Source of the DNA: Thuidium tamariscinum
Taxonomy: Eukaryota > Streptophyta > Bryopsida > Hypnales > Thuidiaceae
Direction: 5' to 3'
Length of the DNA stretch: 64,000 bases
Assembly (NCBI GenBank): GCA_947034885.2
Contig: OX344757.2
Span: forward strand, 21,446,001 to 21,510,000
The notes under the pieces are model-generated. The model worked only from the letters and a program-made list of their open reading frames with translations. It was not told where the DNA came from and did not search any database. Positions 5,735 through 58,498 of the stretch are shown piece after piece. The position numbers and the translations under genes are program-made. Each line of letters opens with the position of its first letter. The stretch's first letter is position 1.

Positions 5735-7835
5735 GAATAAGAACTCAACCTTTTTTTCTTTTGCTTCTAAGCATGAAGACTGCTGTGCACCCTCATTATT
5801 TAGGCTTCAAATTAATTATGAATTTTTTTGTCTAATTAAATGATTGGCTGCCAGAACACAGATGAAAGTGTATTGGCTCTACTGAGTTTTAGCGACAAGA
5901 AGCTCCCACAACCGGATACATGAAGCTCCAACAACAAGAACATGGACCACAGTCACCTCAGTTAAATAAGCCACCACCACGAAGTTTTAGTTTAAGTTAG
6001 GTGAGTGCTGTGCTATTCCATTAACAAGTAAAAAGCACAACCATTCCCATAGCAAAACATTGTGAAGAAAGAAGAATATAATCGAAAGGAGAAATAGAAT
6101 AGAGCGAAGTGCTGCCGCAAGGAATTCAAGTGCTTCCTGTAACAAGGTAAATACATCAATTCTTCCATCTTATTCCCTAGTAAGTTGCTTCTACTGTCAC
6201 GTATATCATGCAAGAATTTTGCACAAACAAACAAATTGGACATTTTCACTTCAAAAAACAAACTCCCCCAGGACTTCTCACGTATAGACACTAGTGCTTC
6301 CGGAAATTTCGTTGCTGCCGTTCCAGTTTGAATTCTTGATCCTGCACGCACCTGTGAATATAATTTAGAAAGCATGAAAATAAAAAGCAAATTAGTTCAG
6401 CTACATATATCTACACCAAGACTTTCAAGAGGGTGACGTCACATACCTACTACAAGCCGTCCGCACCCCACCTTCTCAGCGTGCACTTGCTGACATCCTC
6501 ACCACGACATCTGACCGTCAAACAAACAGCGAATCACTGCACAGAGCGACCGGATTACAAAAGGAGAGGTTCAGTGAATATGCTTCCCAGTCCGCAACTC
6601 CCAATTAAGAATATGATTTCCGCTTTTAGTTGCTAAGAGGTCTTCGGGCCCGACTCATGATGGCCGCTTCTGGACCACAGGGCTACGCAGTGAGTGTCAC
6701 CGAAAACGGAGGGACGAAGGGAGTTCTTTTTTTGGATTGGGACCGACTCATGTGAGGAAGTTAGTTTTCCTCAGGCAGGCAGAGGGACGGACTGCTATTC
6801 GAGATCGTTTTTCCCAAATTCTCCCCCTCCACACAAACACCCCAGAAAATTAAAATTAATATTCTTCTCTGCACGGACGGCCTTCCTTCGTCAACTACTA
6901 CAAGTTCCCTTCAGAAAAATCCTGCCGTTTTTCCTAGTGAGTCTCACTCTGTGTCACTCACTTTGTTGTTAGAAAAGGGACTGGACTAAAATGAGGAGTA
7001 CCGGACGAGCTCCCTGGCTGGGCTTCTATTGCAGGCATGATGGGAGTGCAGGCACACGTCTCGAGAATCGGGGGTTGGGGCGTGGGAGCGGAGCAGGTTG
7101 GATCTGAAGGAGGGAGGGAGAGAGGCATAGCCAGCCACCTCCGAGCAATTCCTCTGTCGGCCTCGTGCCAAACGTTGGAGGGTTGACGGAGGGTGGAGGG
7201 GTGACGGAGGTGCACACCAAACCGACACCCACAATAACTGAACGCCTCTGTCTTCTTTAAGCTTGCTTTCTTCAAATTGGTTGCAAGACTGACTTACAAG
7301 AAGACGACGTACTGGACGAGGAAAACCGTGAAAAGTTGGTGAGATAAAGACTCTCTAGAATTTGAATCAGTTGCGACAAGTCAGCAGCTTGCAATTAAGA
7401 AAATCACAGAACTTTCGAAATTGTTTAGGGTAAACGGGATCATTAGATTCCTTCCTCCATCCCACTGAAGCAGTTCGGTGTCTAATGAACTCATGGGGTT
7501 GCTCCCAAATCCGCAGCTGGAGAACTCCCCGCTCACATTCTCGATTTGCCAAACAACGCTGTCATTGTGCTCCATGATTCCGTTCAACATCAGTGAGTTC
7601 TTGACAGAAACCAAGCGAATGACGAACAATGCGGAAAAAGGTTGGCAACGAAGACATAGCAGCATCTAGGTAAGACTTACTCACCCACAAGAACCTCCTT
7701 GTTCCCGTGTTTCTAGGAAGTTCTGGTTTCGAAGTCTCGCACGGCGGGCAGTTTGATAGTGGCCCGACTTTTTCGGTAAAGTGACGAGGAAGTCAGGTTG
7801 CTAACGTGACGTGAATCCAAACTCCTGAAATCAAT

Positions 7836-8070
7836 AGTGCACGTCCCCGGCCGGGGACGTGTACTGTTCCAAAACCGCAAAAGCTGAGGACTCCGTGAAC
7901 AGTGCACGTCTCCAGCTGGGGACGTGCATTGTTCCTCCAAAAAACTCAAAAGCTGCGGACTCCGTGAACAGTGCACGTCCCCAGCTAGGGACGTGCACTG
8001 TTCCTCCAAAAAACGCAAAAGCTGAGGACTCCGTTAACAGTGCACGTCCCCAGCCGGGGACGTGCACTAT
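7836..8070. repeat. 69-bp minisatellite of palindromes, about 3.4 units
   Basis: Four imperfect palindromes of the form GTGCACGTCCCC-AGCT-GGGGACGTGCAC start near 7,836, 7,901, 7,970 and 8,039. They are separated by spacers reading CAAAAGCTGAGGACTCCGTG with small changes. Most intervals are 69 bp and the first is a few bases shorter. Each palindrome carries two ACGT cores inside CACGTC/GACGTG, the sequence plant bZIP factors often bind. Because 69 is a multiple of three, both strands stay open through the array, giving a 23-residue repeat; I think this is a by-product and not evidence of coding. Confidence 0.9.
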
Positions 8071-8171
8071 TCCGCCACAAAGAAGAAACCTCAACCGCAA
8101 TGCTACATCGCCCCTAAACCCTACTGATAACACATTGAACACAACAAAGAAATTCATGTGAAGAAACGCAC

Positions 8172-10858: not shown

Positions 10859-11788
10859 GTAACCCCTAAAGGAACATGGCCGGTTTTCGACCCAAAACCA
10901 CTCGAAACTGCCATTTCTGCTCCATTCATCTACAAAACTTTAAAAAACTAAATTTTTAGAATCTAACCATAAGATCTTGTACTTTATGTAACTCAGATCA
11001 ATTGGTGAAAATTTCATGAAGTTTGACCGTATAGATAGGAAGATATGAGCATTCAAAGTTGGAAAACAGAGTTTTCTTAAACTCAAGTTTGCAACTTCGA
11101 ATGACTTTGTCCTCCATTTCTGTAATTTTTTTGCACTACAGACCTAGGATTTAAATATTTTTCTATTGAAAAATTGAGCTAAGAGCTTAGCAAATTAAAT
11201 TCACAAAATGAAGACTTTTTTTTCATTGGTAAAAAAATTGTCAAGTAGATGTAGGTCCAAGATTGAAAGAAAAAGTAAATTGCAAGTATCTCATAGATGG
11301 AATTGAAACACAATAATCCCAATGGTGAGATTGTTCTAGCAAACAAAATGTACCGTATCCAAATTTTTTTTTGAAAAATTGTGAAAATTGCATTCAAAAA
11401 TGAGTCCTATAAGTTATTTTTTCAAGAAGATGCTTACCTTGCCAAAAAAACAAGATTGTTCATAACTTGCACATTACTAATCCAAATGGAATGAATCAAA
11501 GCTTTACTTGTAGACAAAAATGAAATCTAGAAGAAAAAAACATTAATTTTTTAATTAAAAATTTTTTGTAGATTTTTTTTTGTGCCCGGCGACATGAAAA
11601 TTATATTTAAGGTGGCATAACTTTTGCTCCCGGTCACCAATTGAAAAAATAATAACATTCCCACAGAGCTAATCAGTTTTTCTATCTTATGTGAAAACTT
11701 CAATAAAAGTCATTGAAAATTGGAGTCACAAGTACCTACCCGAATTCTTAAAGTCCCCCGAGGGGACTCTTGGTCCTTTAGGGGTTAA
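10859..11788 (+). mobile_element. TTAA-family element, subfamily with terminal hairpin
   Basis: The ends are GTAACCCCTAAAGGA and TCCTTTAGGGGTTAA, the left TTAA carrying one change. Close to the right end lies the hairpin GTCCCCCGAGGGGAC. The interior matches the copy at 36.9 kb over most of its length, including ATCTTGTACTT, GGAAGATATGAGCATTCAAA and the right-hand ATAACTTTTGCTCCCGGTCA. There is no coding frame, so it is non-autonomous. Confidence 0.85.
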
Positions 11789-14478: not shown

Positions 14479-14683
14479 GCTCAGATGTTGAATTTTTTTT
14501 TTGGTTAATTTTTGTATGTACATGTACCGATCCATAGAACTCTTGTATTTTGAATTGATATATTGAAAGCATCATATACCAATACTGAAACTTGTTTAGG
14601 AAAATGGTGAGGACAGTGTACTAAGAGGACTGGAACGTGTCTCCAACAAGGGTAATGTACAGGCAATACACCACCTATGAATA

Positions 14684-17600
14684 GTGGTTAAACACAATTA
14701 TTGTAGAGATATGGCAGCAGAAGCATTCGGGAGTCTTGTAGTTGTGAACGTTTTAGGTTCACAAGCTGTTGCAGTGGAAGGAACTAGTGCAAGTGAAAGA
14801 TTGCCAAGTGTTGTACGAAGAAGACTTTTTGATGGAGAGGACAGTGTACTTGGAAATAGAGTAACTCGTGCTGCAAATGGAATGGTGCAACTTCTTGCAG
14901 ATGATGGTAACGTTGTAGGAGTTGGTGTGGTCGATACAAGCTTCAGAGCAGGTGTTGAACTCCATGAAGTAAAGTTACGTCCTTTTGAAATTGCAGTTCG
15001 TGTTACACATGTTGTGGACGAAATGAAATGGGTTGGAGAGGTGGTAGGGGAGTATCTAAAAGATTGTGTAGAGAAAGTCATACGATGGCGTCGTTCTTTA
15101 GTCTGTTGGGCTCATCCTTCTGAAATAAGGACAACGACGAGTACTTCAACGGAAGGACAAAATTTCAGTTTTCCTCCTATTACAACACCACAGTTTGATT
15201 TCCATGAAAATGAGGAGGACCAAACTTATTCAGATGTGACACCACCAAGCCAAGGAGAGAGAAGCACAACAGAACGAAGTTCGCCTATGACGCGAGGATC
15301 CCGAGGTAGTACACCTGATGTTGGAACAATTGATGGAATGCCTATGGGATTGGGAAGAAGGAGGTATTCAATGACGAATCGAAGGGCTAGGGAGAGAGGT
15401 CCAAGAGAGCGTGGTGAATCAATGAGTCAGAAAGTTACTCTTGAAAGTGTGTTGAGCGCAAAGGAAAAAGGGGGATGCAAACGTAATTGTTTAAGTTGTA
15501 TTGATCCAAAATATATATTGGACCAACGATATATGGCTTGGGGTCAGAAGTATGAAGCTAGAGCTACATGGATAATGCAAATGTTGAATGCTTTCTACAC
15601 CCGCACTGAGGGTCCGACCAGAGACAAGTATGTTACAAAGATAGATGGCATAGTCGTTTGCAATGCATGCTATGCTGTAGCTTTGGGATACTCTCAAAGA
15701 CGTTTTAAGCAGTTGAAGACATCACATGTCATATATGGTAGAGTGGCAGCTGTACATGGAAATACTTGTCAAGGGAGGGAAAGTGCAAAAATGTCAACTG
15801 CTAGGGAAAGCCTTGGAATGTTTGTGAATGAAGCTGGATGTCAACAACCCCATCGATCAGTACGAAGGAAAATGGACAATGCAGTGTTGCCCCTCATCTT
15901 GTTGCCTATGAATACAACCAAACTGGATGTGTTTCAATATGTGAATGAAGAAGTGAAGAAACTAGTGGATGGATCAGAACTTTCAGAGAGTTCGTTTCGT
16001 CACTTATGGCGGAAGGAGTTTCCGCATGTACAAATTCCACCGTTCTCAAGATTCTCAAAGTGCTATCATTGTTGGGAATATAAGTGTGGAATGGAGTCAA
16101 CAACAAATGTAGCAGCGAAGGAGAAGATTAAAGAGTGGTACATTCTTCACATCCAAATTCAAATGGACGAGAGGCGAGATTATTGGTTGTTCAAGAGGTC
16201 TGCAATGATCACTCCAGATTTTTTTATGTGTTTGATAGTGGATGGTATGGATCAAAACACAACCATGATACCCAAGATGAGGCAATCCGTGAAGAACATT
16301 GAATCCCGATTTGTGAAGACTCATCTTTGTGGAGTATTGGTACATGGAATTGGCTTCTACGCAGACGTGTGGATAGATGCTCACCACAAACATGATAGCA
16401 ATCAAGTGATTACATCACTAATGAATGTTATAAATGATGTGAAGCGAAGGAAAGGATCATTGCCACCAACACTGAAGATTCAAGCAAATAACACCACCAG
16501 AGAGAACAAAAACATCTACATGTTTGCCATGTGCGCAGCACTAGTGGGGCTTGGATTCTTCAAAGAAGTGCATTTGTGTTTTCTGATTGTCGGCCATACA
16601 CACGAAGATATAGATCAAAGATTCAGTGTCATTTCAAATGTGTTGAAGAGGAAGAACATAGATACCTTGGAAGAGATGCTACAATTAGTAGAGAAGGGGA
16701 TATCATACATGGAGTCGTTTGTGAGTGCACGTAAGCTTGAGCATGTCCGTGATTGGAAGTCCTTTATCACGCCTCATTTGCTACAAGGTGGGGAACAACT
16801 CACAGGAATAACACTTCCCTACCATATGAGGTTTTATATAGAGAATGGAATGGTTCGAGTACAACACAAACATTTTAGCTCCGATGAATGGGGCCCAGCA
16901 GGAGGACATTTGTGTTTGCACTCTTTACCAAGTATAGCAGAGAAACCCGAGTTTGCGCAGGTATTTGCAGCGGATGAAAGGGAATTGAAATCACTGGACG
17001 AATTCATCGCATACAAGGATAAATTAATCTTGAGAGGCTCTGAGCCAATAAGGAACATGGAGGTTGTAGAAAAAATTCAGCAATTCAAGAAGTACTTAAA
17101 GGAGTTTCCACAAGAAAATCGAGGAGGCATTATTGGCTTACCTTTTTGGCCAAATGAAATTGCGAATGACATTGAAGAGGGACCAACTCTTCCAAACCTT
17201 CAAGATGAACTTACAAATGTAGGTGTAACATTGGATGCAGATGGGAATGTAACAGGAAGTGCAGCTCTCAATTTGATAATGGCAACAATGCCCAATCCAG
17301 AGCGGAGAGGGTATTTTGGACCTCGAAAAGACCGACCACGTCAAGCAAAATCACGAAGAGTGATTGGAGGGAGGAATAGAGATGCAAGTATCCAAATGGC
17401 ACGTGAAACAATAGGGCAAGCAAGCGATGATCCTTTCCCTCCATTCAATCCAGAGAATGATGTTGTTATAGGGCAATTTGTAGCTCTTCAAGTGGAATTG
17501 ACGGAAGTAAGAGCAGGAGTACCTTTCTATTTAGCAAAGGTGTTGGAGGTAGGTCAAGGAAATTGGGCCAAAAAGATGAAAGTCTTGTGGTACTGGCCTA

Positions 17601-17905
17601 GTATGAAATCTGGAGCACGAGATGAAGCAGGAAGTCACAGAGTGAGGTACACGAATTGCATGGAGGCAGCATGGGAACCATCAGGTGAAAATATGGATTG
17701 GGTTGAAAAAGAAAGTGCCATTTATTCCTGGGTGGATGTCTCTCGTCGAGGGCAAAGTAGTAATATAATACGGTCTAACATTACAGTGCATAGAGTGCAA
17801 ACAGAGAAGACAGTGATCATTCTAGTAGATGCTAAACCCCATCTTCTAGAGTATTTGGCAAAGAAAATGGAAGACTTGGACGATGACCGTCTGGAAAATG
17901 ATTGA
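14684..17905 (+). CDS. DUF7869-like transposase-type protein, 1,073 codons, uninterrupted
   Basis: A single open frame of 1,073 codons, by far the longest in the window. The second ATG (14,711, MAAEAFGSLV) may be the real start, because TTGTAG just before it could be a splice acceptor. Residues 1-250 are low-complexity and basic near the end. A cysteine cluster follows: C265, C269, C272, C326, C329, then C460, C463 and C468, which could bind zinc. The core holds three blocks I associate with DUF7869 proteins: VDGMDQ (519-524), NNTTRENKN (602-610) and VGHTHEDIDQRFS (636-648). These look like the acidic sites of an RNase H-like fold; the aspartate I expect in the second block is asparagine here. 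The C-terminus (about 927-975) has an SH3/chromo-like pattern ending VLWYWP. I infer a DNA transposase because such genes are repetitive and single-exon, but a domesticated host protein is possible. No second copy is in the window. Confidence 0.75.
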   Translation: MVKHNYCRDMAAEAFGSLVVVNVLGSQAVAVEGTSASERLPSVVRRRLFDGEDSVLGNRVTRAANGMVQLLADDGNVVGVGVVDTSFRAGVELHEVKLRPFEIAVRVTHVVDEMKWVGEVVGEYLKDCVEKVIRWRRSLVCWAHPSEIRTTTSTSTEGQNFSFPPITTPQFDFHENEEDQTYSDVTPPSQGERSTTERSSPMTRGSRGSTPDVGTIDGMPMGLGRRRYSMTNRRARERGPRERGESMSQKVTLESVLSAKEKGGCKRNCLSCIDPKYILDQRYMAWGQKYEARATWIMQMLNAFYTRTEGPTRDKYVTKIDGIVVCNACYAVALGYSQRRFKQLKTSHVIYGRVAAVHGNTCQGRESAKMSTARESLGMFVNEAGCQQPHRSVRRKMDNAVLPLILLPMNTTKLDVFQYVNEEVKKLVDGSELSESSFRHLWRKEFPHVQIPPFSRFSKCYHCWEYKCGMESTTNVAAKEKIKEWYILHIQIQMDERRDYWLFKRSAMITPDFFMCLIVDGMDQNTTMIPKMRQSVKNIESRFVKTHLCGVLVHGIGFYADVWIDAHHKHDSNQVITSLMNVINDVKRRKGSLPPTLKIQANNTTRENKNIYMFAMCAALVGLGFFKEVHLCFLIVGHTHEDIDQRFSVISNVLKRKNIDTLEEMLQLVEKGISYMESFVSARKLEHVRDWKSFITPHLLQGGEQLTGITLPYHMRFYIENGMVRVQHKHFSSDEWGPAGGHLCLHSLPSIAEKPEFAQVFAADERELKSLDEFIAYKDKLILRGSEPIRNMEVVEKIQQFKKYLKEFPQENRGGIIGLPFWPNEIANDIEEGPTLPNLQDELTNVGVTLDADGNVTGSAALNLIMATMPNPERRGYFGPRKDRPRQAKSRRVIGGRNRDASIQMARETIGQASDDPFPPFNPENDVVIGQFVALQVELTEVRAGVPFYLAKVLEVGQGNWAKKMKVLWYWPSMKSGARDEAGSHRVRYTNCMEAAWEPSGENMDWVEKESAIYSWVDVSRRGQSSNIIRSNITVHRVQTEKTVIILVDAKPHLLEYLAKKMEDLDDDRLEND

Positions 17906-18410: not shown

Positions 18411-18703
18411 CATTAGGGTTAGGGGAGATTTGAAGCCTCTTAAGGGCCGTTTCAAGTCTATTTCCAAAACTGTTCCTAAAATTGTTGGTTGTTGTTAAGC
18501 CAACAATTTTTAAGAAAATAAAAAAATTGGTTTTGAAATGCAACAAAAATTTAGAAAAAAATTTGAGTTTTTTTTGATGACATGGCACATTCTTGACCAC
18601 GTTAGATACTTAGATTTGTGCATTTTGCATTCCCGTAGTAGTTTTTGCATTTTAATAGTTTGGGAACTCACAATCTACCATAGGCTTGAAATATCTTCTA
18701 ATG
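18411..18703 (-). mobile_element. CATTAG-family MITE
   Basis: The ends are CATTAGGGTTAGGGGAGATT and the related inverted AATATCTTCTAATG. The interior shares the family's blocks in reverse order: a GGGCCGTTTC block near the left, and a GACATGGCAC...GACCACGTTAG block and GGGAACTCACAATC near the right. It is diverged from the copy at 31.0 kb. It lies 39 bp upstream of a TTAA-family end. Confidence 0.75.
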
Positions 18704-20961: not shown

Positions 20962-22367
20962 ATTGTACAATGGGGTACCAATCAAAATGTCGTTTTCGAA
21001 TTTGCAATGAAAAAAATTTCAATACTGCCAACTTTGAAAGCCTCCTGAGAGCTCAAAAATTGGTATTTTACCACGAAATTTGTATCACAGCATCATCTTT
21101 AAGTTAATTACATGTATGCCAAATTTCAAGGCCAAAAAATTCACCAAAAAAAAGTTATTCAAAATCTACCAACATGGGTAGTGGTGAGAAACATTTCACT
21201 ACTTTCAACTTTGACACCTTCCTAAGGATTGAGTTTTTTTTCTTTTGCCATGAAATTTTTGTCATGAAACAATGTCTATGTTTTTAATATGTACAAAAAA
21301 TTTGAAGGTAAATTTCTTTTCTAAGAAGATATTTGAAATCTCCCAACAGGTGTAGTTTTGAGAAAATTTTCACAATTTCCAACTTTGACACCCTCCCAAG
21401 GGCTGAAAAATTGGTTTCTTACCATGAATTTTTTATTGGTGAAGTCATACATATGCTGATAATATGAGCTCCAAATTTCAAGTTCAAATGAATTACCAAA
21501 AAGAAGATATACAAAATCTCCCAACATGTGTAGTTGTGAGGAGGAGTTTTTGAGCCCTTAGCATAGTGTTATTTTGTGGAGCAAAGTTTGACATGAATGT
21601 AAAAACTCAACCTCACAACTACACATGTTGAGAGATTTTGAATATCATTTTTTGAGGAAGTGTTTTGAACTTGAAATTTTAAACATATATTATCAACATA
21701 AATTTGATCTTATTCAAAAAAATTCATGTTAATTAGACAAATTTTCAGCTCTTGGGAGGGTGTCAAAGTCGGCAATAGTGAAAATTTTCTCACAACTACA
21801 CATGTTGGGAGATTTTGTATATCTTCTTTTTGGTAATTCATTTGAACTTGAAATTTGGAGCTCATATTATCAGCATATGTATGACTTCACCAATAAAAAA
21901 TTCATGGTAAGAAACCAATTTTTCAGCCCTTGGGAGGGTGTCAAAGTTGGAAATTGTGAAAATTTTCTCAAAACTACACCTGTTGGGAGATTTCAAATAT
22001 CTTCTTAGAAAAGAAATTTACCTTCAAATTTTTTGTACATATTAAAAACATAGACATTGTTTCATGACAAAAATTTCATGGCAAAAGAAAAAAAACTCAA
22101 TCCTTAGGAAGGTGTCAAAGTTGAAAGTAGTGAAATGTTTCTCACCACTACCCATGTTGGTAGATTTTGAATAACTTTTTTTTGGTGAATTTTTTGGCCT
22201 TGAAATTTGGCATACATGTAATTAACTTAAAGATGATGCTGTGATACAAATTTCGTGGTAAAATACCAATTTTTGAGCTCTCAGGAGGCTTTCAAAGTTG
22301 GCAGTATTGAAATTTTTTTCATTGCAAATTCGAAAACGACATTTTGATTGGTACCCCATTGTACAAT
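20962..22367. mobile_element. Foldback element with near-identical arms of about 580 bp
   Basis: The left arm (20,962-21,543) and right arm (about 21,787-22,367) are reverse complements around position 21,664.5 with no length difference. I found no mismatch in the long stretches I compared. Outermost is the self-complementary ATTGTACAAT on both sides, then GGGGTACCAATCAAAATGTC. Other TTAA copies show GAATTGTACAACATATAGG at the empty site, so part or all of ATTGTACAAT (4, 6, 8 or 10 bp) is the target duplication. No transposase frame is present; the 68-residue frame in each arm is the same frame mirrored. Long inverted ends with an 8-10 bp duplication would fit a Mutator-like or hAT-type non-autonomous element. 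Confidence 0.9.
21612..22316 (+). repeat. Four 174-178 bp tandem units inside the foldback element
   Basis: Units start at 21,612, 21,789, 21,967 and 22,141 with the word CTCACAACTACACATGTTGG or close variants, each followed by a GATTTT-ATATCTT block, a long AT-rich body and a CTTGGGAGGGTGTCAAAGTT block. Units differ clearly from each other although the two arms are nearly identical, so the tandem array is older than the inverted duplication. The first unit forms much of the central spacer. Confidence 0.85.
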
Positions 22368-24184: not shown

Positions 24185-24546
24185 CATAAGAGGATTTTCA
24201 GCTACTTTATAAGACTGCGAGTTCCCAAACGTTGGGAACACATTGGGAACGATGGGAACGTGATGCTGATGTGGTCGAGCGACTGCCACGTCAGAAAATA
24301 ATAATTTTTTATTAATTTTAATTAAATATTAAATATTTTTAAAATATTTTTTTGAAAAAAAAATATTTTTTTAAATCATTTTTTTCTTCTTTAATACACT
24401 CTGAAGTTTTTTGAAAAAATAAATTTTAATTTTTTTTTTTCAAAATTCAAAAATTCAGACCAACAGGGGGCTGGTTTGCAGTAGTGGGAACAATTTCGGG
24501 GAACACCCCTGAAACAGTCTTCTGGGGGCACAAAAATCCTCTTATG
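24185..24546 (+). mobile_element. CATTAG-family MITE, long variant
   Basis: The ends CATAAGAGGATTTTCAG and CAAAAATCCTCTTATG are inverted repeats. Family blocks follow in order: AGACTGCGAGTTCCC, GATGTGGTCGAGCGACTGCC, CACGTCAG, an AT-rich middle, ACCAACAGGGGGCTGG and a GAAACAGTCTTCTGG block. It differs from other copies by a longer AT-rich middle. Confidence 0.8.
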
Positions 24547-25921: not shown

Positions 25922-26875
25922 TTAACCCCTAAAGCCCTGAACATTGTTTTTTGAGATTATAAATTTTTTGGGCAGCTCACTACGGATGGAGTTTTTATTT
26001 TTTTTCTTTGAAATTTTGATACAATGTGTGCCCGAGGAGTAGCTTTAAGGCCTGACAATTTTCATAACTTTTGACTTCACGGTTAAAAAGTTATGGCAGG
26101 ATATGTTGTTTTCCTTACTCGGCGGGCAGCCTGGGCAGCTCAAAAAACTTCTTCAAAAAAACTTTTTTTTTAAAAGTGAAATTTCAAATTGGTTCTTTAG
26201 ATTTATACAAACATGTGAAGCTTTGAATCAATCCATTCCGATCAATGGGTCAAAAGTTATGAAGATTTTGAGTTTGGGGTAGTTTGCAGCCAGTTACAGA
26301 ATCTCTACAATACAAAAAAAGTTTGAAATTCTTCATTTAATTCAATTTTTCATATTTTTGGAAAAAAATAAAAACACAAGGTGTAGATTGTTTATTACAA
26401 CATTTTAACCATTGGGATTGAAAATTTTCAATTCCATGAATAAAATGTTCACAATTTAGTATTTTGGCTCATTTTTTACTTCTTTCTACTTACTTATTTT
26501 TTCCTATATGTTGTACAATTCCAAATGGTTTGAAATTTTTTGAGAATGTAGCCAACTTGCATTGAAGTATGAATTCAAAGAGTAACCACCATTTTGAATT
26601 TTTTTTCACACAAATGTGACCTTACGAAGTGCAGCTGCCCGGATTTTCGCAGGGATAAAAAAACAATTTTTGTCAATTCAAATGCTTATATCTTGCAATC
26701 TACACGGTGGAAATTTCTGAAATTTTTCCCACATGTGTACAAACCACCTTATTACAAGATCATACGGTTACATGAGTCAAAAATGTGTTTTAAGAAAAAA
26801 AATTGCGCTTGTATTAGAAATGGCATTTTTGGAGCATTTTTGGTGAAAACATAGTCAAAAACCTTTAGGGGTTAA
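25922..26875 (-). mobile_element. TTAA-family element, 954 bp, both ends present
   Basis: The ends are TTAACCCCTAAAGCCCTGA and AAAACCTTTAGGGGTTAA. It belongs to the second subfamily, which carries GGGCAGCTCACTACGG near its left end in place of the GTCCCC hairpin. The 13-mer TCATAACTTTTGA occurs at 26,062 and its reverse complement at 26,250. Closely related to the copies at 49.7 and 57.5 kb. No coding frame of note. Confidence 0.9.
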
Positions 26876-28390: not shown

Positions 28391-31032
28391 CACTATAAGA
28401 AAAAATGATGTCTAAAATAATGTGAAAATGAATTGATATATGTTGATAATTTTTGTTCGTTAAGACATCTTGATTTGAAAAAATAGTCAACACAATTGTG
28501 TTGATTTAATTTCAAGATTTGGTCAATTTTTATTATTCAAAAATCCAAATTTATAGACTAACAACACATATACTTAACCCCTAAAGGACTAAAGTCCCCT
28601 CAAGGGACACTTGGAATTTCGAGCAGGCTTGTGTGGCCTGAATTTTTGCTATGATTTTTTGAAACTTTTTTTGAAGATAGGAAATCAAGTTAGATTTCCA
28701 AAAATATAATTTTTTTATTTCAATTGGTGCTTTGAAGCAAAATTGATGCCATTCTAAGTCCAAAAAGCAGTTCGTCGGGTAGAAAAAAAAAACACAAAAA
28801 AAATTACTTTTTTATTTTTTATTTTTTTTCTCAAAGATTATGTTTAAACCCTACATCTGAAGCTTTGGTTCATTTTATTTGGACAAATAATGAGAAAGTT
28901 ACAAACAATCTTGTATTTCGGGCAATTCTAAGCACCTTCTTCAAAAAATAACTTATAGAATTCATTTTTGAATGCAATTTTTCAAATTTTCAAATTTTCT
29001 TTTTTGATAGGGTTTAGGATGTTTTCAAGAACAAGCTCACTTTTGGGATTATGGTTTTTCAATTACATCTTAAAGTTATTAACAACTTAGTGTTTTGTTC
29101 AATCTTAGACCTACTTCTACTTAACAATTTTTTAATGAATGAAAATCAAGTAGTCTTTTTTAAGAAAAATTTCCCCTAATTCTCAACTCAAATTTTCAAC
29201 ATAAAATTTTTAACTTCATGGTCCATAGTGCAAAAAAATTCAACAAATGGCAGTCAAAGTCATTTGAAATTGCAAGTCAAAGTTCAAAAAAAAAAAATTT
29301 CCAACTGTGAATGCTAATATCTTCCAATCCGTACGGTCAAACTTCATGAAATTCTTACCACATGATTTTAGACAAATAATTTACAAGATCCTATGGTTAG
29401 ATTTTAAGAAAATTGTTTTCTTTTGTTTCTTTGGGAAGAAGTAGCAAACATGGCAGTTTTGAGTGGTTTTCAAGCCAGAAAATGCCTCAATCCTTTAGGG
29501 GTTAATTAAAAAAAAATTAGCACTTTGTTCAGAGTAGTTCAATGTATACTTGACAATTATACTTTAAGTGCCACATACTTTGGTGCTTAGGGAAGGGAGA
29601 AGACAACCTCTTCACTCAAGTGGGATAGGAGGAAGTAGAACAAATACACAAATTAGGATGGGTAGGAGCTCAACTACTCATAGTTAAGTCATGATTAGGA
29701 ATTGTACATAAAGTAGAATTTCAAACCTCATTTAATCTAAAAGTGCGCCAATGTCCAATTTTTAGACAATGTATAGATTAAAGTAAAGATCATATATCTT
29801 TTTCATTACACATTGGATGAAAGTCATCATAATTTTTAGAGAGACTTTATGAAGTTGTTATCCTATCTAAAGATTGAATATGATGAAACTAGAAAACATG
29901 TTTTCTAAAATTATAAATGAAGAATTATGTCTAGTGGTTGATGAAGCCAAGATTGCATTGATTCAAGTTCAATCTTCAAATTGCAAAATAGAACTTATAG
30001 AATCAAAGATCACAAAATTAAAAATCATCACCATGTTAAGAGAACCTCATTTCAAATCCATTCCAACAAAGTTTACTCAAAAAATGACAATATTTGGCTT
30101 ATAATTGAATTTAGAAGGAATCTTGAATTTTCCCTTTCGTTAAGCACTTGGGTTTCCAGTCTCATTCTAAATAATTGATGCAATAACGCATTACAATATT
30201 TGGGAAAGTGCAACGATGCATTGCACTGTTGCAAAGCTTAAAGATTTCTTTCCAAAAAATATTTCTTTGCAAATTTCAACAGGAAAGAAAAAGAACCCTA
30301 GCACACTTAACACTAGGTTACAACCCTCCTTGAGTGCATATTAGGAAATTTTCTACGCTTAGGCTACAGCCCTTGGGCAGCAATTTCCCAATATGCACTC
30401 AAGGAGGGTCGTAACCCCTTACAAAATTTATAGAAAAATATTGGTTATAGCATTAGTAAATCTAACCATAAGAATAGAATCTAAAACTCAAACTCTACAA
30501 CTTTTATTTGCATCTCAATTCCAAAATATTCTTCTAAATAGCTCTTTCTAATGATTTTTTTTAAAAATTGTCAATTCTAGAGATGGGTCTCAAGACTGAG
30601 GAATTAAGCATAGTAGCCAATAACTTCTCTTAAGAAACTTTGAACTAAAAAAAGGTGAAAAATCAAACCAAATTTCATCTCCAAAAATCCAATTAACATT
30701 TTGAACCTCCAATCAAAATTTATGGACAAATTTCAAAGAGGATTAAATTGTTAATGAAAATGTCTTTTCCAAACCCTCTTTGAAATTTGCCCATAACTAG
30801 TGATTGGAGGCTTCAAATCTCAAATAGGTTTTTGGAAATAAAATCTACTTTGATTTTTCACCTTTATTCAATTCAAAGATTTAAGAAAAAATATTCTACT
30901 ATGTCTAAATAAGGTTTGAAATTCACCTTAATGTATGTTTAATGGATTACAAGATCAACATATGAACTTCTACTTTTTAACAATCAACACAAATTAGTTC
31001 TATGTTGATTAGGGCCCCCTTTTCTTGTAGTG
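28391..31032. mobile_element. Second CACTA-like element, carrying a nested TTAA element
   Basis: The ends CACTATAAGAAAA and TTTTCTTGTAGTG are the CACTA type. The 3-bp flanks (ATG and ACA) do not match, so the duplication has decayed or one end is misjudged. The interior hairpin at about 30,635-30,890 is a diverged relative of the one at 597-940 in the first CACTA element, and ATGTTGATTAGGG near the right end matches subterminal words there. Without the nested 931-bp insert it would be about 1.7 kb. No transposase frame. Confidence 0.7.
28575..29505 (-). mobile_element. TTAA-family element nested in the CACTA-like element
   Basis: The ends TTAACCCCTAAAGGAC and TCCTTTAGGGGTTAA are intact, with TTAA at both. 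The hairpin GTCCCCTCAAGGGAC lies next to the left end, placing it in the first subfamily in reverse orientation. Words such as TGAATGCTAATATCTTCCAA and ATCCTATGGTTAGATT match the family. Confidence 0.9.
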
Positions 31033-31045
31033 ACATATGCCAATG

Positions 31046-31340
31046 CATTAGGAGGGATTTGAGGGCTCTGGGAGCCTGCGAGTTCCTACAGCCTGAAATC
31101 CGTAATCAGTCGCGGGAACGCAAATATGCAGGAATCCGACGTGGTTGAGACCGTGCCACGTCATCGACTTATTTTCTTGAAAAAAAATAAATTTGGATTT
31201 TTTTTCATATTTCAGGACCCAAAAAAAATCTTTTTTTTTTAAATTTTTAAATGTTGACCTGACAGCGGCCAGCCGTTCCCAGACCAGTTTCGAGAACAGT
31301 CCCGAAACGGCCCTTCGGAGCCCTCAAATCCCTCCTAATG
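31046..31340 (+). mobile_element. CATTAG-family MITE, best-preserved copy
   Basis: The ends CATTAGGAGGGATTTGAGGG and CCCTCAAATCCCTCCTAATG are perfect inverted repeats of about 20 bp. Inner blocks: a CTGCGAGTTCC word, GAATCCGACGTGGTTGAGAC, GTGCCACGTCATC, an AT-rich middle, GACAGCGGCCAGCCGTTCCC and GAACAGTCCCGAAACGGCCC. Base composition is much richer in G and C at both ends than in the middle. No coding frame. Confidence 0.9.
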
Positions 31341-32743: not shown

Positions 32744-33278
32744 CATTAAAAGAAATTTGAGGGATGTAAGAGACTACAAGTTCTCGCAGTCTGGGAATGC
32801 AGTCAAGTACTGAATTGCAGAAATCATTAGATGAAATTTGAGGCATTAGGAGACTGCGGGTTCCCGGACTGCAGGAACGCAATTTCTACCCTATGAATTC
32901 AAATCCTACGTGGTCGCGCCCCTACCATGTAATTATTATTTTTTTTCAAATTATTTTTTGACTTATTTTCATATTTCAAGATTCGATTTATTGATTTATT
33001 ATTAAAACCAGCCTGACAGCGGCCAACGACATTGGGAGTCATTTTGGGAACAAACCCAAAACAACCTTGTAATGCCCTCAGATTTCTTCTAATGTCGATG
33101 TGGCTGGGGTAGTGCCACATTATTTTATTTTATTTTTTGAAATTTTTTTTGGACTTTTTTTTACATTTCAAGATTCAATTTTTTTTAAATGCTGGCCTGA
33201 CAACTCCTAGCCATTTTGAGAACTGTTCCGCGAACAGTTCTAAAACATCCCTTTAGAGGCCTTAGATTTCTTCTAATG
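32744..33278 (+). mobile_element. CATTAG-family MITE, outer copy of a nested pair
   Basis: It starts CATTAAAAGAAATTTGAGGG and ends CTTAGATTTCTTCTAATG. The left part (AGACTACAAGTTCTCGCAGT) and the right part (GATGTGGCTGGGGTAGTGCC onward) are the two halves of one family member, split by the copy at 32,825-33,094. It lies near the right end of a TTAA-family element. Confidence 0.75.
32825..33094 (+). mobile_element. CATTAG-family MITE, inner copy of a nested pair
   Basis: The ends are CATTAGATGAAATTTGAGGC and CCCTCAGATTTCTTCTAATG. Inside are AGACTGCGGGTTCCCGGACT, CCTACGTGGTCGCGCC and GACAGCGGCCAACG. Joining the outer copy across it gives GCAGAAAT-TCGATGTGG, which lines up with GCAGGAAT-CCGACGTGG of the copy at 31.0 kb with no duplicated base. 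Confidence 0.8.
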
Positions 33279-36936: not shown

Positions 36937-37869
36937 TTAACCCCTAAAGGACCAAGGCCTTTTTTCTGTCAAAAACCTCTCAAAACAGCCATTTCTGTTG
37001 CATTCATCCAAGAAAACAAAATATATATATTTTTTAAGAATCTAACCATAGGATCTTGTACTTAACTTGATTGAGATAAAGTGGTAAAAATTTCATGAAG
37101 TTTGATCGTACAGATTGGAAGATATGAGCATTCAAAGTTGGAAATACAAGTTTTTTTGAATTGTGGTTTGCAATTTCAGATGACTTTGACTGAAATTTGT
37201 ATTAAAAAATTGCACTATAGACTTTGAATTTATAATTTTTTGTGCTAATAAATTGAGTTCAGAGTCTAGGAAAAAAATTTCACACAAAAAATACTTGATT
37301 TTCATTCTTTAAAAAATTGTTAAGTAGATGTAGGTCCAAGATTGAAAGAAAAACTAAATGGTTAATAACTCTAAGATGGGATTGAAATACAATAATCCCA
37401 ATGGTGAGATTGTTCTAAAAATTAAACATAACCTTGTCCAACAATTTTTTTTGAAAAATTGTGAGAATTGCATTCAAAAATGAATCCTATAAGTTATTTT
37501 TTCAAGAAATTGTTTAGATTGCCCGAAAAACAAGATTGTCCATAACTTTTTCATTATAAGTCCAAATAGAGTGAATCAAAGCTTCACATGTAGGCAAAAA
37601 TATATTATTTTAGAAAAATAAATTTAAAAAAATAAATTTTGACTTTTTGCAAAAAAAAAATTCTGCCCGCCGAATGAAAATTTGGGCTTTTTGTGGTATA
37701 ACTTTTGCTCCCGGTCACCAATTGAAATAAAAATTACATTCCCATGAAGCTAATCAGTTTTCCTATCTTATGAAAAAGTTTCAAAAAGATTCATTAAAAA
37801 TTGAGGTCTACAGAACCTACCCGAACTCCAAATTGTCCCCCTAGGGGACAATGGTCCTTTAGGGGTTAA
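36937..37869 (+). mobile_element. TTAA-family element, best copy of the hairpin subfamily
   Basis: The ends TTAACCCCTAAAGGACC and GGTCCTTTAGGGGTTAA are perfect 17-bp inverted repeats including TTAA. Near the right end is the perfect hairpin GTCCCCCTAGGGGAC. Interior landmarks: TGCATTCATCC, ATCTAACCATAGGATCTTGT, GGAAGATATGAGCATTCAAA, GGTCCAAGATTGAAAGAAAA, CAAGATTGTCCATAACTTTT and ATAACTTTTGCTCCCGGTCA. No coding frame. Confidence 0.92.
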
Positions 37870-49711: not shown

Positions 49712-50641
49712 TTAACCCCTAAAGGACCAAAGTGCTTTTTTGGCAACATAGCGATTTTGGGTAGGTACGTGTGACTAGAGATTTCTATATTTTGGAACCA
49801 AAACTTGATAGAAGGTGTGGACGAGGAGTATATTTCAAGCCCAACAATTTTCATGACTTTTGACTACATGGTTGAAAAGTTATTGCATAATATGTTGTTT
49901 GTTTCTCAACTCGGGCAGTTCGGGCAGATAAAAAAAATCACTGTTTTTGGAAACCAAAATTTGAAATTGGTTTTATAGATTTATATATATGTGGAAATCT
50001 TTGAATCATTCCATTTGGATTAATGAGTCAAAAGTTATGAAGAATTTTAGTTTGCGGGTAGTTATGGATTCTCTACTCTAAAATAAACTTTGAAGTCCTT
50101 TATTTTACTCAATTTTCAATATTTTTGAAAAAACAAAAAATATTGGGTGTAGAATGTTTATTACAACATTTGAACCATTGAGATTGGCATTTTTCAATTC
50201 AATAAATAAATTGTTAAACATTTAGTATTTTGAATCATTCTCTACTTCTCTCTACTTACTATTTTTTTTGTACATGTTGTACAATTTGAAATGATTTGAA
50301 ATTTTTTGAGCATGTAGCCAACTTGAACTGAAAAATGAATCCAAAGAGTAACAACCATTTTGAATATTTTTTCATACAAATGTGGCCTTCTGAAGTGCAG
50401 CTGCCCGGATTTCCGCAGTGATAAAAAAGGGATTATTGTAACTTCAAACACTATTATCTTACAATCTACATGGCGGAATTTTCTGAAATTTTTTGTACAT
50501 GCTCTCAAACTAGTTTACACTAAGATCCTATGGTTACATTATTCTAAAAATGTTTTTTTTCTAAAATTTGATAGTTATCCTAAAAATGACAGTTTTGGAG
50601 CAATTTTGGTGAAAACATAGCCAAAAACCTTTAGGGGTTAA
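49712..50641 (-). mobile_element. TTAA-family element, 930 bp, both ends present
   Basis: The ends TTAACCCCTAAAGGACC and AACCTTTAGGGGTTAA are present, with TTAA outermost. It is the closest relative of the truncated copy at 45.8 kb. Interior landmarks: GGCAACATAGCGATTTTGGG, TCAAAAGTTATGA (50,028), AGTGCAGCTGCCCGGATTTC and a GAAAACATAGCCAAAAACC block beside the right end. No coding frame of note. Confidence 0.92.
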
Positions 50642-51046: not shown

Positions 51047-52297
51047 TTAATCCCTTAAGGATCAAGGCTATTAGAGGGGTTTCGAGGATAAAAAAAGCCC
51101 ATTTCAAGACTATTACCCTAGATGTTCCCTATGCTACTAGAAATTGCAAACCAATCTTATTGATTGAAATTTTCAAATTTTTGAAAAAAGATAAACTTTT
51201 TTTTCAAAAAATTCTAAAAAATATTAAGAAACCTAAAATTGTCTTTTTTGTAATTTTAAAAAATCAAATTTTTTTCTAATATGACAGTCTCTTAACCATA
51301 TTGAACTGCTTGTGTGGTGTATTCCTACAATTTGGGAATTCAAAATAACTTGTGATTGCTCAATGTCTTCAAAACTCTTCTAATGATTTTTTGGCCCAAA
51401 AAACACTCAAACTGTCATATTTACTACTTTCACCCAAGGAAAAAAAATCTTAGAATTTAACTATAGGAACTTGCACTTTACTTCTTTTAAATCATGTGGT
51501 AAAATTTTTATGAAGTTTAACCATACTAATTGGAAGATATTAGCATTCAAAGTTGGAAAAAAAAAGATTTTTTGAACTTTGCATTGGTGTACAATTTCAA
51601 ATGACTTTGATTGCCTTTTGTGGAATTTCTTGTATTATGGACCATGTATTAAAAAAGAACTATATTGAACATTTTGTGTTGAGAGTTGGAGATTTAAAAA
51701 AAGAAGTAAACACTTGATTTTCATTCATTCAATAATTGTTAAGTAGAAGTAGGATGAAGATTGAACAAAACATTAAATTTTTAATAACTTTAAGATGGAA
51801 TTGAAATACTAAAATTCCAATGGTGAGATTTTGCTTGCAAAAAAATTGAACCCTATCAAAAATAAAATTTGAAAAATTTGAAAATTTGCATCCAAAAATT
51901 AATTCTGTAAGTTGTTTTTTCAAGAAGTTGCTTAAATTGTCCAAAATACAAGATAGTTCATAAATTTTCCATTATTAATCCAAATTAAATGAATCATAGG
52001 CTCAAATCTTCAAATGTAAACAAAAACATATTCTTTGAGAAAAGAGAATTAAAATTTTAAAAAATTAAAATTTCAGGTGTTTTTGTGGGTTGAACCTCAA
52101 AAATTGCTTTTAGGACTTAGAATGGCATAACTTTTGCTCCCAGACACCAATTGAAATTAAAAAAAGATATTTTAAGAAGATAGTCTAATTTCCTTCTTTT
52201 TTTTGAATTCAAAAAATCATGTCAAAAATTCAATTCCTACAAGCCTACCTAAAATTCCAAGTGTCTACTAAGGAGGTTTTGATTCTTTAGGAATTAT
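51047..52297 (+). mobile_element. TTAA-family element carrying a CATTAG-family MITE
   Basis: It begins TTAATCCCTTAAGGATCAAG; the decayed right end reads GATTCTTTAGGAATTAT. Between them are the hairpin-subfamily words AACTATAGGAACTTGC, GGAAGATATTAGCATTCAAA and CATAACTTTTGCTCCCAGAC. A CATTAG-type MITE occupies 51,069-51,385, immediately inside the left terminus. Confidence 0.75.
51069..51385 (-). mobile_element. CATTAG-family MITE inside a TTAA element
   Basis: The ends are TATTAGAGGGGTTTCGAGG and CTTCAAAACTCTTCTAATG. Diverged family blocks are in reverse order (CCCATTTCAAGAC, CTCTTAACCATATTG, TTGGGAATTC). The uninterrupted 36.9-kb copy reads AAGGC-CTTTTTT at this place, and here the flanks join as AAGGC-ATTTTTT, again with no target duplication. 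Confidence 0.65.
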
Positions 52298-57543: not shown

Positions 57544-58498
57544 TTAACCCCTAAAGCCCTAAACTACATTTTTTGGCAACATAGCAATTTTGGGCAGCTC
57601 ACTATGAATGGAGTTTTTATTTTTTTTCTTTGAAATTTTCACACAACATGTATTCAAGGAGTAGCTTCAAGGCCCAACAATTTTCATAACTTTTGACCAC
57701 ACAGTTTAAAAGTTATAGCATGATATGTTGTTTTGTTTGAATTGCGGGTAGCTTGGGCAAAAAAAAAACTTCTTTAAAAATTATTTTTTCTAAAAATAAA
57801 ATTTTTAATTTGGTTTATTAGATTTTTTATCTATTTAGAAAGCTTTGATTCATTCCATTTCAATAAGTGAATCAAAAGTTATGAGGAATTTTAGTTTGGA
57901 GTAATTTGGGGATAGTTATAGAATCTTTACTCTACAAAAAAGTTTGAAATTCTGTATTTAATTCAATTTTTAATATTTTTGGAAAAAAAGTAAAACATTG
58001 GGTGAAGATTTTTTATTAAAATATTTTAACCATTGGGATTGACATTTTTAATTTTTATAAATAAATTGTTCACAATTTAGTATTTTCAAGCATTTTCTAC
58101 CTCTTTCTACTAACTATTTTTTTCCTATATGTTATACAATTCCAAATGATTTGAAAATTTTTGAGCATATAGCCAACTTGAATTGTAAAATGAATTCAAA
58201 GAGTAACCATCAGTTTGAGTATTTTTTCATACAAATGTGACCTTGTGAAGAGCAGCTGCCCGAATTTCCATAGGGTTAAAAAAAGGATTTTTGCTAGTTC
58301 AAATGTTAATATCTTGCAATCTACACGGTAGAAATTTCTAAAAGAAAATTCCACATTTTTTCAAACCACCTAACTACAAGATCCTACGGTTAAATATGTC
58401 AAAAAATGTTTCTTTTTCAAAAAAATTGCACTTGTATTAGAAATCACAGTTTTGGAGTGATTTTGGTGGAAACATAGTCAAAAACCTTTAGGGGTTAA
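57544..58498 (-). mobile_element. TTAA-family element, 955 bp, both ends present
   Basis: The ends TTAACCCCTAAAGCCCT and AAACCTTTAGGGGTTAA are intact. It is closely related to the 954-bp copy at 25.9 kb, sharing GGGCAGCTCACTA, GGAGTAGCTT and the paired TCATAACTTTTGA (57,684) and TCAAAAGTTATGA (57,872). No coding frame. Confidence 0.92.

Follow-up and report, generated by a model that had tools for sequence, protein, structure and literature searches.

The target-site duplication is the standard signature by which DNA transposons are found and classified. CACTA elements duplicate 3 bp of target; Helitrons and Helentrons leave no duplication, have ends of a different structure and join the host at a fixed dinucleotide, the Helitrons having a host A-T junction and no terminal inverted repeats (TIRs). 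Duplication length varies among transposon superfamilies (PMC10045372): it is 9-12 bp in Mutator and 8 bp in hAT (PMC11304231), TWA in PIF/Harbinger (PMC4482050) and TA in Tc1/mariner (PMC10045372). The closest described counterpart of the elements reported here is Spy, which is described there from insects and an oyster and inserts between AAA and TTT with no target-site duplication (PMC4482050, PMC11304231). Like the elements reported here, Spy (PHIS) elements are bounded by TIRs, behave as cut-and-paste transposons and leave the host sequence at the junction unaltered (PMC4482050, PMC11304231). The first-pass annotation of the DNA examined here had called inverted-repeat elements without a duplication rare and had known of no plant family with the ends in question. 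The first statement is fair, Spy being the sole eukaryotic TIR group of this kind met in the literature covered. The second agrees with a limited set of searches, judged by titles and the opening lines of abstracts, in which no plant family with these ends was found; likewise, among the matches listed for the ten-base end strings, none was a transposon paper by its title.

The window, by which we mean the whole 64,000-nucleotide stretch of DNA that was analysed, spans positions 21,446,001-21,510,000 of contig C9, and the genome searched comprises 363,211,507 bases in 19 contigs. In this genome, 49 matches to the chlorophyll a/b-binding family indicate a green plant or alga, perhaps a moss, although one cyanobacterial control is matched by this family as well. 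The window contains several copies of a non-coding, high-copy MITE family that we call CATTAG. The TIR of this family is 23 bp long, CATTAGGAGGGATTTGAGGGCTC, and the two consensus ends are identical over these 23 bp and diverge beyond them. The exact 19-base end CATTAGGAGGGATTTGAGG occurs 905 times genome-wide, 452 times forward and 453 times in reverse, while the reversed-pattern control returns 0; the bare hexamer CATTAG, found 39 times in the window against 36.6 expected, is not enriched. The family is defined by the 19-base end, which is far above chance, and not by the bare hexamer. Two query copies gave 2,048 and 2,060 candidates genome-wide, the best 40 of each being scored, and the family numbers several hundred copies at least. 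Copies were sampled, not at random, as the best matches to these two queries together with the first-listed places on contig C1. The fetched loci and the window together yielded 98 distinct full-length copies. Of these, 87 carry exact CATTAG...CTAATG ends and range from 247 to 335 bp, with a median pairwise identity of 82% and a maximum of 97%. The family is thus short, TIR-bounded, high in copy number and uniform in length, as MITEs are. One of the fetched loci (L049, C1:20099644-20101477) contains two CATTAG MITEs in the same orientation, at most 250 bp apart.

The reference copy in the window is an intact element of 295 bp (31046..31340, forward strand) with CATTAG...CTAATG ends, which covers profile positions 1-302 (7e-96) and shows 83-100% identity genome-wide over its best 40 matches scored. 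Nearby, two copies are nested. The inner one, 270 bp long (32825..33094, forward), matches the whole profile, positions 1-302. It interrupts an outer copy, also on the forward strand, whose left part (32744..32824) has a weak profile match at 32744-32793 alone (profile positions 1-50, E=0.066), and whose right part (33095..33278) continues directly after the inner element at profile position 92 (33,096) and extends to position 302. A divergent copy with the left end TATTAG (51069..51385, reverse) lies near the start of a 930-bp repeat. An older copy of 293 bp (18411..18703, reverse) was recognised by profile match, and a degenerate relative (24206..24539, forward) consists of two matching pieces, 24206-24309 and 24417-24539.

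From the inner copy and the copy at 51,069-51,385, the first-pass annotation had concluded that the family inserts with no duplicated base, and both joins are present as it described them. The joined flanks of the inner copy, GCAGAAAT-TCGATGTGG, are equal in length to GCAGGAATCCGACGTGG at 31.1 kb, and two further copies align without a gap over the flank join, which gives a 0-bp duplication. Those of the copy at 51,069-51,385, AAGGC-ATTTTTT, fall within the ~930-bp host repeat. Uninterrupted forms of this repeat are present at 36937..37869 (forward) and at 28574..29505 (reverse, where the junction reads GAGGCATTTTC); four of six spanning matches are gap-free, and the duplication is again 0 bp. 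The outer copy (32,744-33,278), for which the repeat at 36937..37869 serves equally as the empty site, is inserted in that ~930-bp repeat too. Its flanks join as CCTACCAAAA-ATCCCATTTG with no change in length, and four of its five matches are gap-free; it is a third duplication-free case, absent from the earlier annotation. A search of the fetched loci and the window with the joined flanks of the copy at 18411..18703 yielded no empty site.

Empty sites were sought more widely with 84 joined-flank queries, representing 81 exact-ended copies and three window copies (32744, 51069 and 18411), against the fetched loci and the window; six exact-ended copies, fetched later, fall outside this comparison. 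Junction-spanning matches were obtained for 30 of the 84 queries, two of which (L001 and L035) are self-matches, leaving 28 valid comparisons. Nineteen of these are clean, with no base gained or lost: L006, L009, L028, L037, L042, L050, L052, L058, L062, L064, L065, L066, L076, L078, L118 and L126, and the window copies at 32744, 32825 and 51069. L028 was scored as clean on seven of its nine matches, its best match being gapped. Two comparisons (L033 and L121) show one extra base at the junction, which matches its neighbour, two are ambiguous with a possible 1 bp (L041 and L044), and five are weak or indel-rich and hence uninformative (L005, L020, L068, L073 and L079). Several of the empty sites share host repeat families, at different positions. 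Of 367 mock junctions placed in these alignments, 279 had no gap within 10 bp, compared with 13 of 16 real junctions under a stricter filter, the other three comprising two 1-base subject gaps and one 3-base query gap; the junction is therefore no more prone to indels than its surroundings.

For four joined flanks, the matched length across the junction was also compared with the query length genome-wide, with the best 40 candidates of each scored and two self rows each excluded for L121 and L126. L058 has equal length at 38 of 40 places, three of them with 100% identity across the junction, and two of the 40 are off the main length; L126 has equal length at 33 of 39, with six off the main length. 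All 40 places matched by L033, on the other hand, are one base shorter than the joined-flank query, as are 32 of the 38 matched by L121, the other six being off the main length. Taken together, the length checks and the empty sites indicate that insertion as a rule gives 0 bp and that a minority of insertions do gain 1 bp. The original claim of duplication-free insertion accordingly stands for the normal 0-bp joins, and is refined by a minority, represented by L033 and L121, with a 1-bp duplication.

These joins also fix the boundaries. Were the element to start at GGAGGG instead, a TA (mariner-like) or TTA/TAA (Harbinger-like) duplication might lie within a CATTAATG target, and both TA and TTA/TAA are indeed contained in CATTA...TAATG. 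The TTA/TAA pair is inverted, however, and not direct, in the 19 clean comparisons the host sequence abuts CATTAG/CTAATG and cannot accommodate CATTAATG, and the three L058 places are perfect across the junction. Misplaced boundaries of this kind are refuted by the empty sites, and we regard them as extremely improbable. The termini of the element are CATTAG/CTAATG, and its insertion normally adds or removes no host bases. A chance that is close to negligible attaches to the alternative that normal duplications were made and later lost, by recombination between copies or by mutation. The copies are moderately old, to judge from their median pairwise identity, which would allow for such loss, but recombination would join the flanks of two different loci, whereas the 19 joins match one continuous host repeat, and it is unlikely that mutation would erase all 87 duplications while 87 end pairs stay exact. 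Loss through recombination is thus disfavoured by the empty sites.

The flanks themselves were tested for duplications in the 87 exact-ended copies, the 11 of the 98 without exact end hexamers being excluded, with expectations taken from flank re-pairing. One-base matches occur in 34 of 87 copies compared with 22.7 expected (p=0.006), two-base matches in 10 compared with 6.5 (p=0.11) and three-base matches in two compared with 1.8, and none of the 87 has an exact direct flank repeat of 4 bp or longer. Similarly, when exact 6-base direct repeats were sought at 81 sites for any offset pair from 0 to 11, none was listed with two or more cases. With one mismatch allowed, flank repeats of 3 and 4 bp are at chance level and those of 6-8 bp are absent from the 87 copies, while 5-bp repeats occur in six compared with 2.4 expected (a count matched in 52 of 2,000 shuffles) and a 9-bp repeat in one, L110 (matched in 19 of 2,000). 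Clean empty sites are available for two of the 5-bp near-repeats, L062 and L066, which are therefore chance resemblances. The flanks of L110 (C1:21849518-21850312) are single-copy, a flank search returning its own two flanks alone. A regular duplication of 2-10 bp, which the first-pass annotation had named as the outcome of wider sampling that would speak against its proposal, is thus absent from the 87 exact-ended copies, and insertion without a target-site duplication is borne out by 19 of the 28 valid comparisons together with 87 flank pairs. The excess of one-base matches suggests that about one in six insertions has a 1-bp duplication; among clear empty sites, two of 21 have one extra base. 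A regular 1-bp duplication in all copies was rejected, given that the one-base match is found in only 34 of 87 and that the L058 and L126 joins are mostly of equal length.

These results set the family apart from several TIR superfamilies. PIF/Harbinger MITEs (Tourist-like) are also short TIR-bounded MITEs of plants, and the PF13359 domain is abundant in this genome; nevertheless, their TWA duplication contrasts with three-base matches at chance level in CATTAG. Tc1/mariner MITEs (Stowaway-like) are likewise TIR-bounded and reach high copy number in plants (PMC12550479), but the clean CATTAG joins leave no room for a TA site. Mutator, hAT and CACTA differ in that exact flank repeats of 4 bp or more are found in none of the 87 copies and of 3 bp in two, and that one-mismatch repeats of 8 bp are found in none and of 9 bp in L110 only.

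The first-pass annotation had also recommended a search over ten or more sites for a consistent target preference. No strong motif emerged, but there is a preference for A/T at 3 bp on either side. At 81 sites, no host base is fixed at the junction, and the third host base on either side is G or C in 28 of 162 half-sites compared with a 31% background (p=6e-5, uncorrected and noticed among 15 positions). The base A occupies positions -1, -2 and -3 in 43, 59 and 79 of the 162 half-sites. The target is otherwise nearly random; host dinucleotides at the junction include A-T at four and T-T at 10 of 87 sites, with none fixed. This bears on two further explanations. An element of the rolling-circle or HUH type, such as a Helitron or Helentron, would share the absence of a duplication, but CATTAG has 23-bp TIRs, that is, two identical ends, it lacks a fixed host dinucleotide, and occasional 1-bp duplications occur; we judge this origin very improbable. 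Insertion by a tyrosine or serine recombinase, through Crypton- or IS607-like strand exchange, would also be traceless, since such enzymes leave no duplication, as one abstract describes for IS607. IS607 is presented there as having no terminal inverted repeats, however, and no fixed host base adjoins the CATTAG element, so that we give this explanation a similarly slight chance. As for Spy, its lack of a target-site duplication is found here too, in the 19 clean joins of 28 and with a 1-bp minority. The Spy target AAA-TTT, in contrast, occurs at one of 87 sites, against a nearly random target in CATTAG. The family is not filed as Spy, because of this difference in target and because no transposase is linked to it.

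Neither an autonomous CATTAG copy nor its transposase was found in the C1 spans, the lone end, or the PF13359 and DUF7869 loci checked. Two long TIR-to-TIR spans on C1 (L039 and L040; 9.7 and 3.7 kb), considered as autonomous copies, are separate MITE copies or fragments; between their inward-facing exact ends, the longest stop-to-stop frames have 178 and 112 codons. A lone end (L023) was rejected as an autonomous partner, the sole full-length match of its adjoining DNA being itself (eight matches, seven of them partial), and looks like a truncated copy. The Harbinger-type domain PF13359 is abundant, with 150 matches scored of 331 candidates genome-wide. No CATTAG-type ends are present within 1.5 kb of the 12 best of these 150, nor within that distance of eight DUF7869 loci, and a profile search found no CATTAG copy at two further PF13359 loci (L105 and L106). 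Zero to one CATTAG copy was recognised by the model in 24 transposase-gene loci, 89,450 bases in all, which makes the family less dense at these loci than in the window. Transposition may rely on an enzyme other than those checked here, or the autonomous copies may have become rare or disappeared. Seven PF13359 matches have an identical score and 458-codon open frames (G000 C2:10729380, C2:28667779, C4:8996368, C6:2739543, C7:14115939, C9:16099507 and C9:16107457); spread over contigs as they are, they probably represent a recently active Harbinger-type family.

We consider it likely that CATTAG MITEs are a high-copy family moved in trans by a cut-and-paste transposase whose insertion is normally blunt, with an occasional 1-bp stagger. 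The two identical ends point to double-ended, DDE-type recognition, and a transposase of this type would recognise both ends and excise the element there. To judge from the products, the target strands would be cut directly opposite each other (0-nt stagger) and occasionally 1 nt apart. With an unstaggered target cut there is nothing to be filled in, so that no duplication arises, and the 1-bp minority implies that cutting is not blunt in every case. Target choice by the enzyme probably depends on the shape of ~6 bp of DNA, with A/T at -3 and +3, and not on a fixed motif. The leading guess for this candidate enzyme is a PHIS-type (Spy-like) DDE transposase.

How such an enzyme relates to Spy is a separate question. 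A plant branch of Spy/PHIS proper, with a PIF/Harbinger-related DDE transposase and blunt integration, would accord with the non-staggered cuts of Spy itself (PMC4482050, PMC11304231), with the variation in duplication length among PHIS groups, none or 1 to 4 bp (PMC10045372), with the many PF13359 transposases in this genome and with the A/T preference at -3/+3, which are the outer positions of the Spy target AAATTT. We nevertheless think it unlikely, in view of the rarity of AAA-TTT sites, the absence of CATTAG-type ends within 1.5 kb of the 12 best PF13359 matches, and a PHIS survey of 836 eukaryote genomes that reports no new Spy families (PMC4482050). More tentatively than the blunt mode of insertion itself, we put forward as a possibility an undescribed plant transposon group with an essentially unstaggered cut and very little sequence preference. 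It would be a second, independent origin of duplication-free cut-and-paste transposition in eukaryotes, and would have escaped notice because programs that search for MITEs use a duplication as a criterion. Our preferred reading is that CATTAG represents a new plant version of the cut-and-paste elements that leave no duplication.

A 2025 survey of 207 plant genomes combined EDTA-TIR-Learner with MITE Tracker, the latter set to require a duplication of at least 2 bp, and used duplication and TIR to classify the families (PMC12550479); a family like CATTAG would presumably be missed or misfiled by such a survey. A sizeable duplication-free family in a plant would show blunt integration beyond Spy, and its mix of 0-bp and 1-bp outcomes gives direct access to the way in which the stagger is set by a transposase. 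Near-random, traceless insertion would also be an advantage in a gene-transfer tool.

The window holds further repeats and frames. The host repeat group of ~930-955 bp has the ends TTAACCCCTAAAGG...CCTTTAGGGGTTAA and is represented at 10859-11788, 25922-26875, 28574-29505, 36937-37869, 49712-50641 and 57544-58498. Eleven end pairs of this group were found by a pattern that includes TTAA, allowing up to two mismatches; the right edge carries TTAA in all 11 and the left edge in 10 of 11, the other having GTAA, which suggests either a TTAA duplication or fixed ends, the empty-site evidence being from one insertion only. An intact stop-to-stop frame of 1,074 codons with a DUF7869 domain (E 5e-50) lies at 14681-17902 on the forward strand. 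Genome-wide, DUF7869 has at least 150 scored matches (854 candidates). Many of these lie in open frames of ~950-1,070 codons, and contig C11 carries a large number of them. The DUF7869 proteins are probably a high-copy, transposase-like family to which no function is assigned; no name for it was found in the literature searched. One pair of DUF7869 loci (L103 and L104) has 4,897 bp in common at 99.3%. This element was rejected as the mover of CATTAG on its right end, the end covered by the fetched sequence, which reads ...AAGGCCTT and not CATTAG. Two inverted arms of 579 bp with 100% identity (20962-21540 and 21789-22367) lie ~250 bp apart and contain shorter repeats, and a short array of overlapping direct and inverted repeats occupies 7833-8081.
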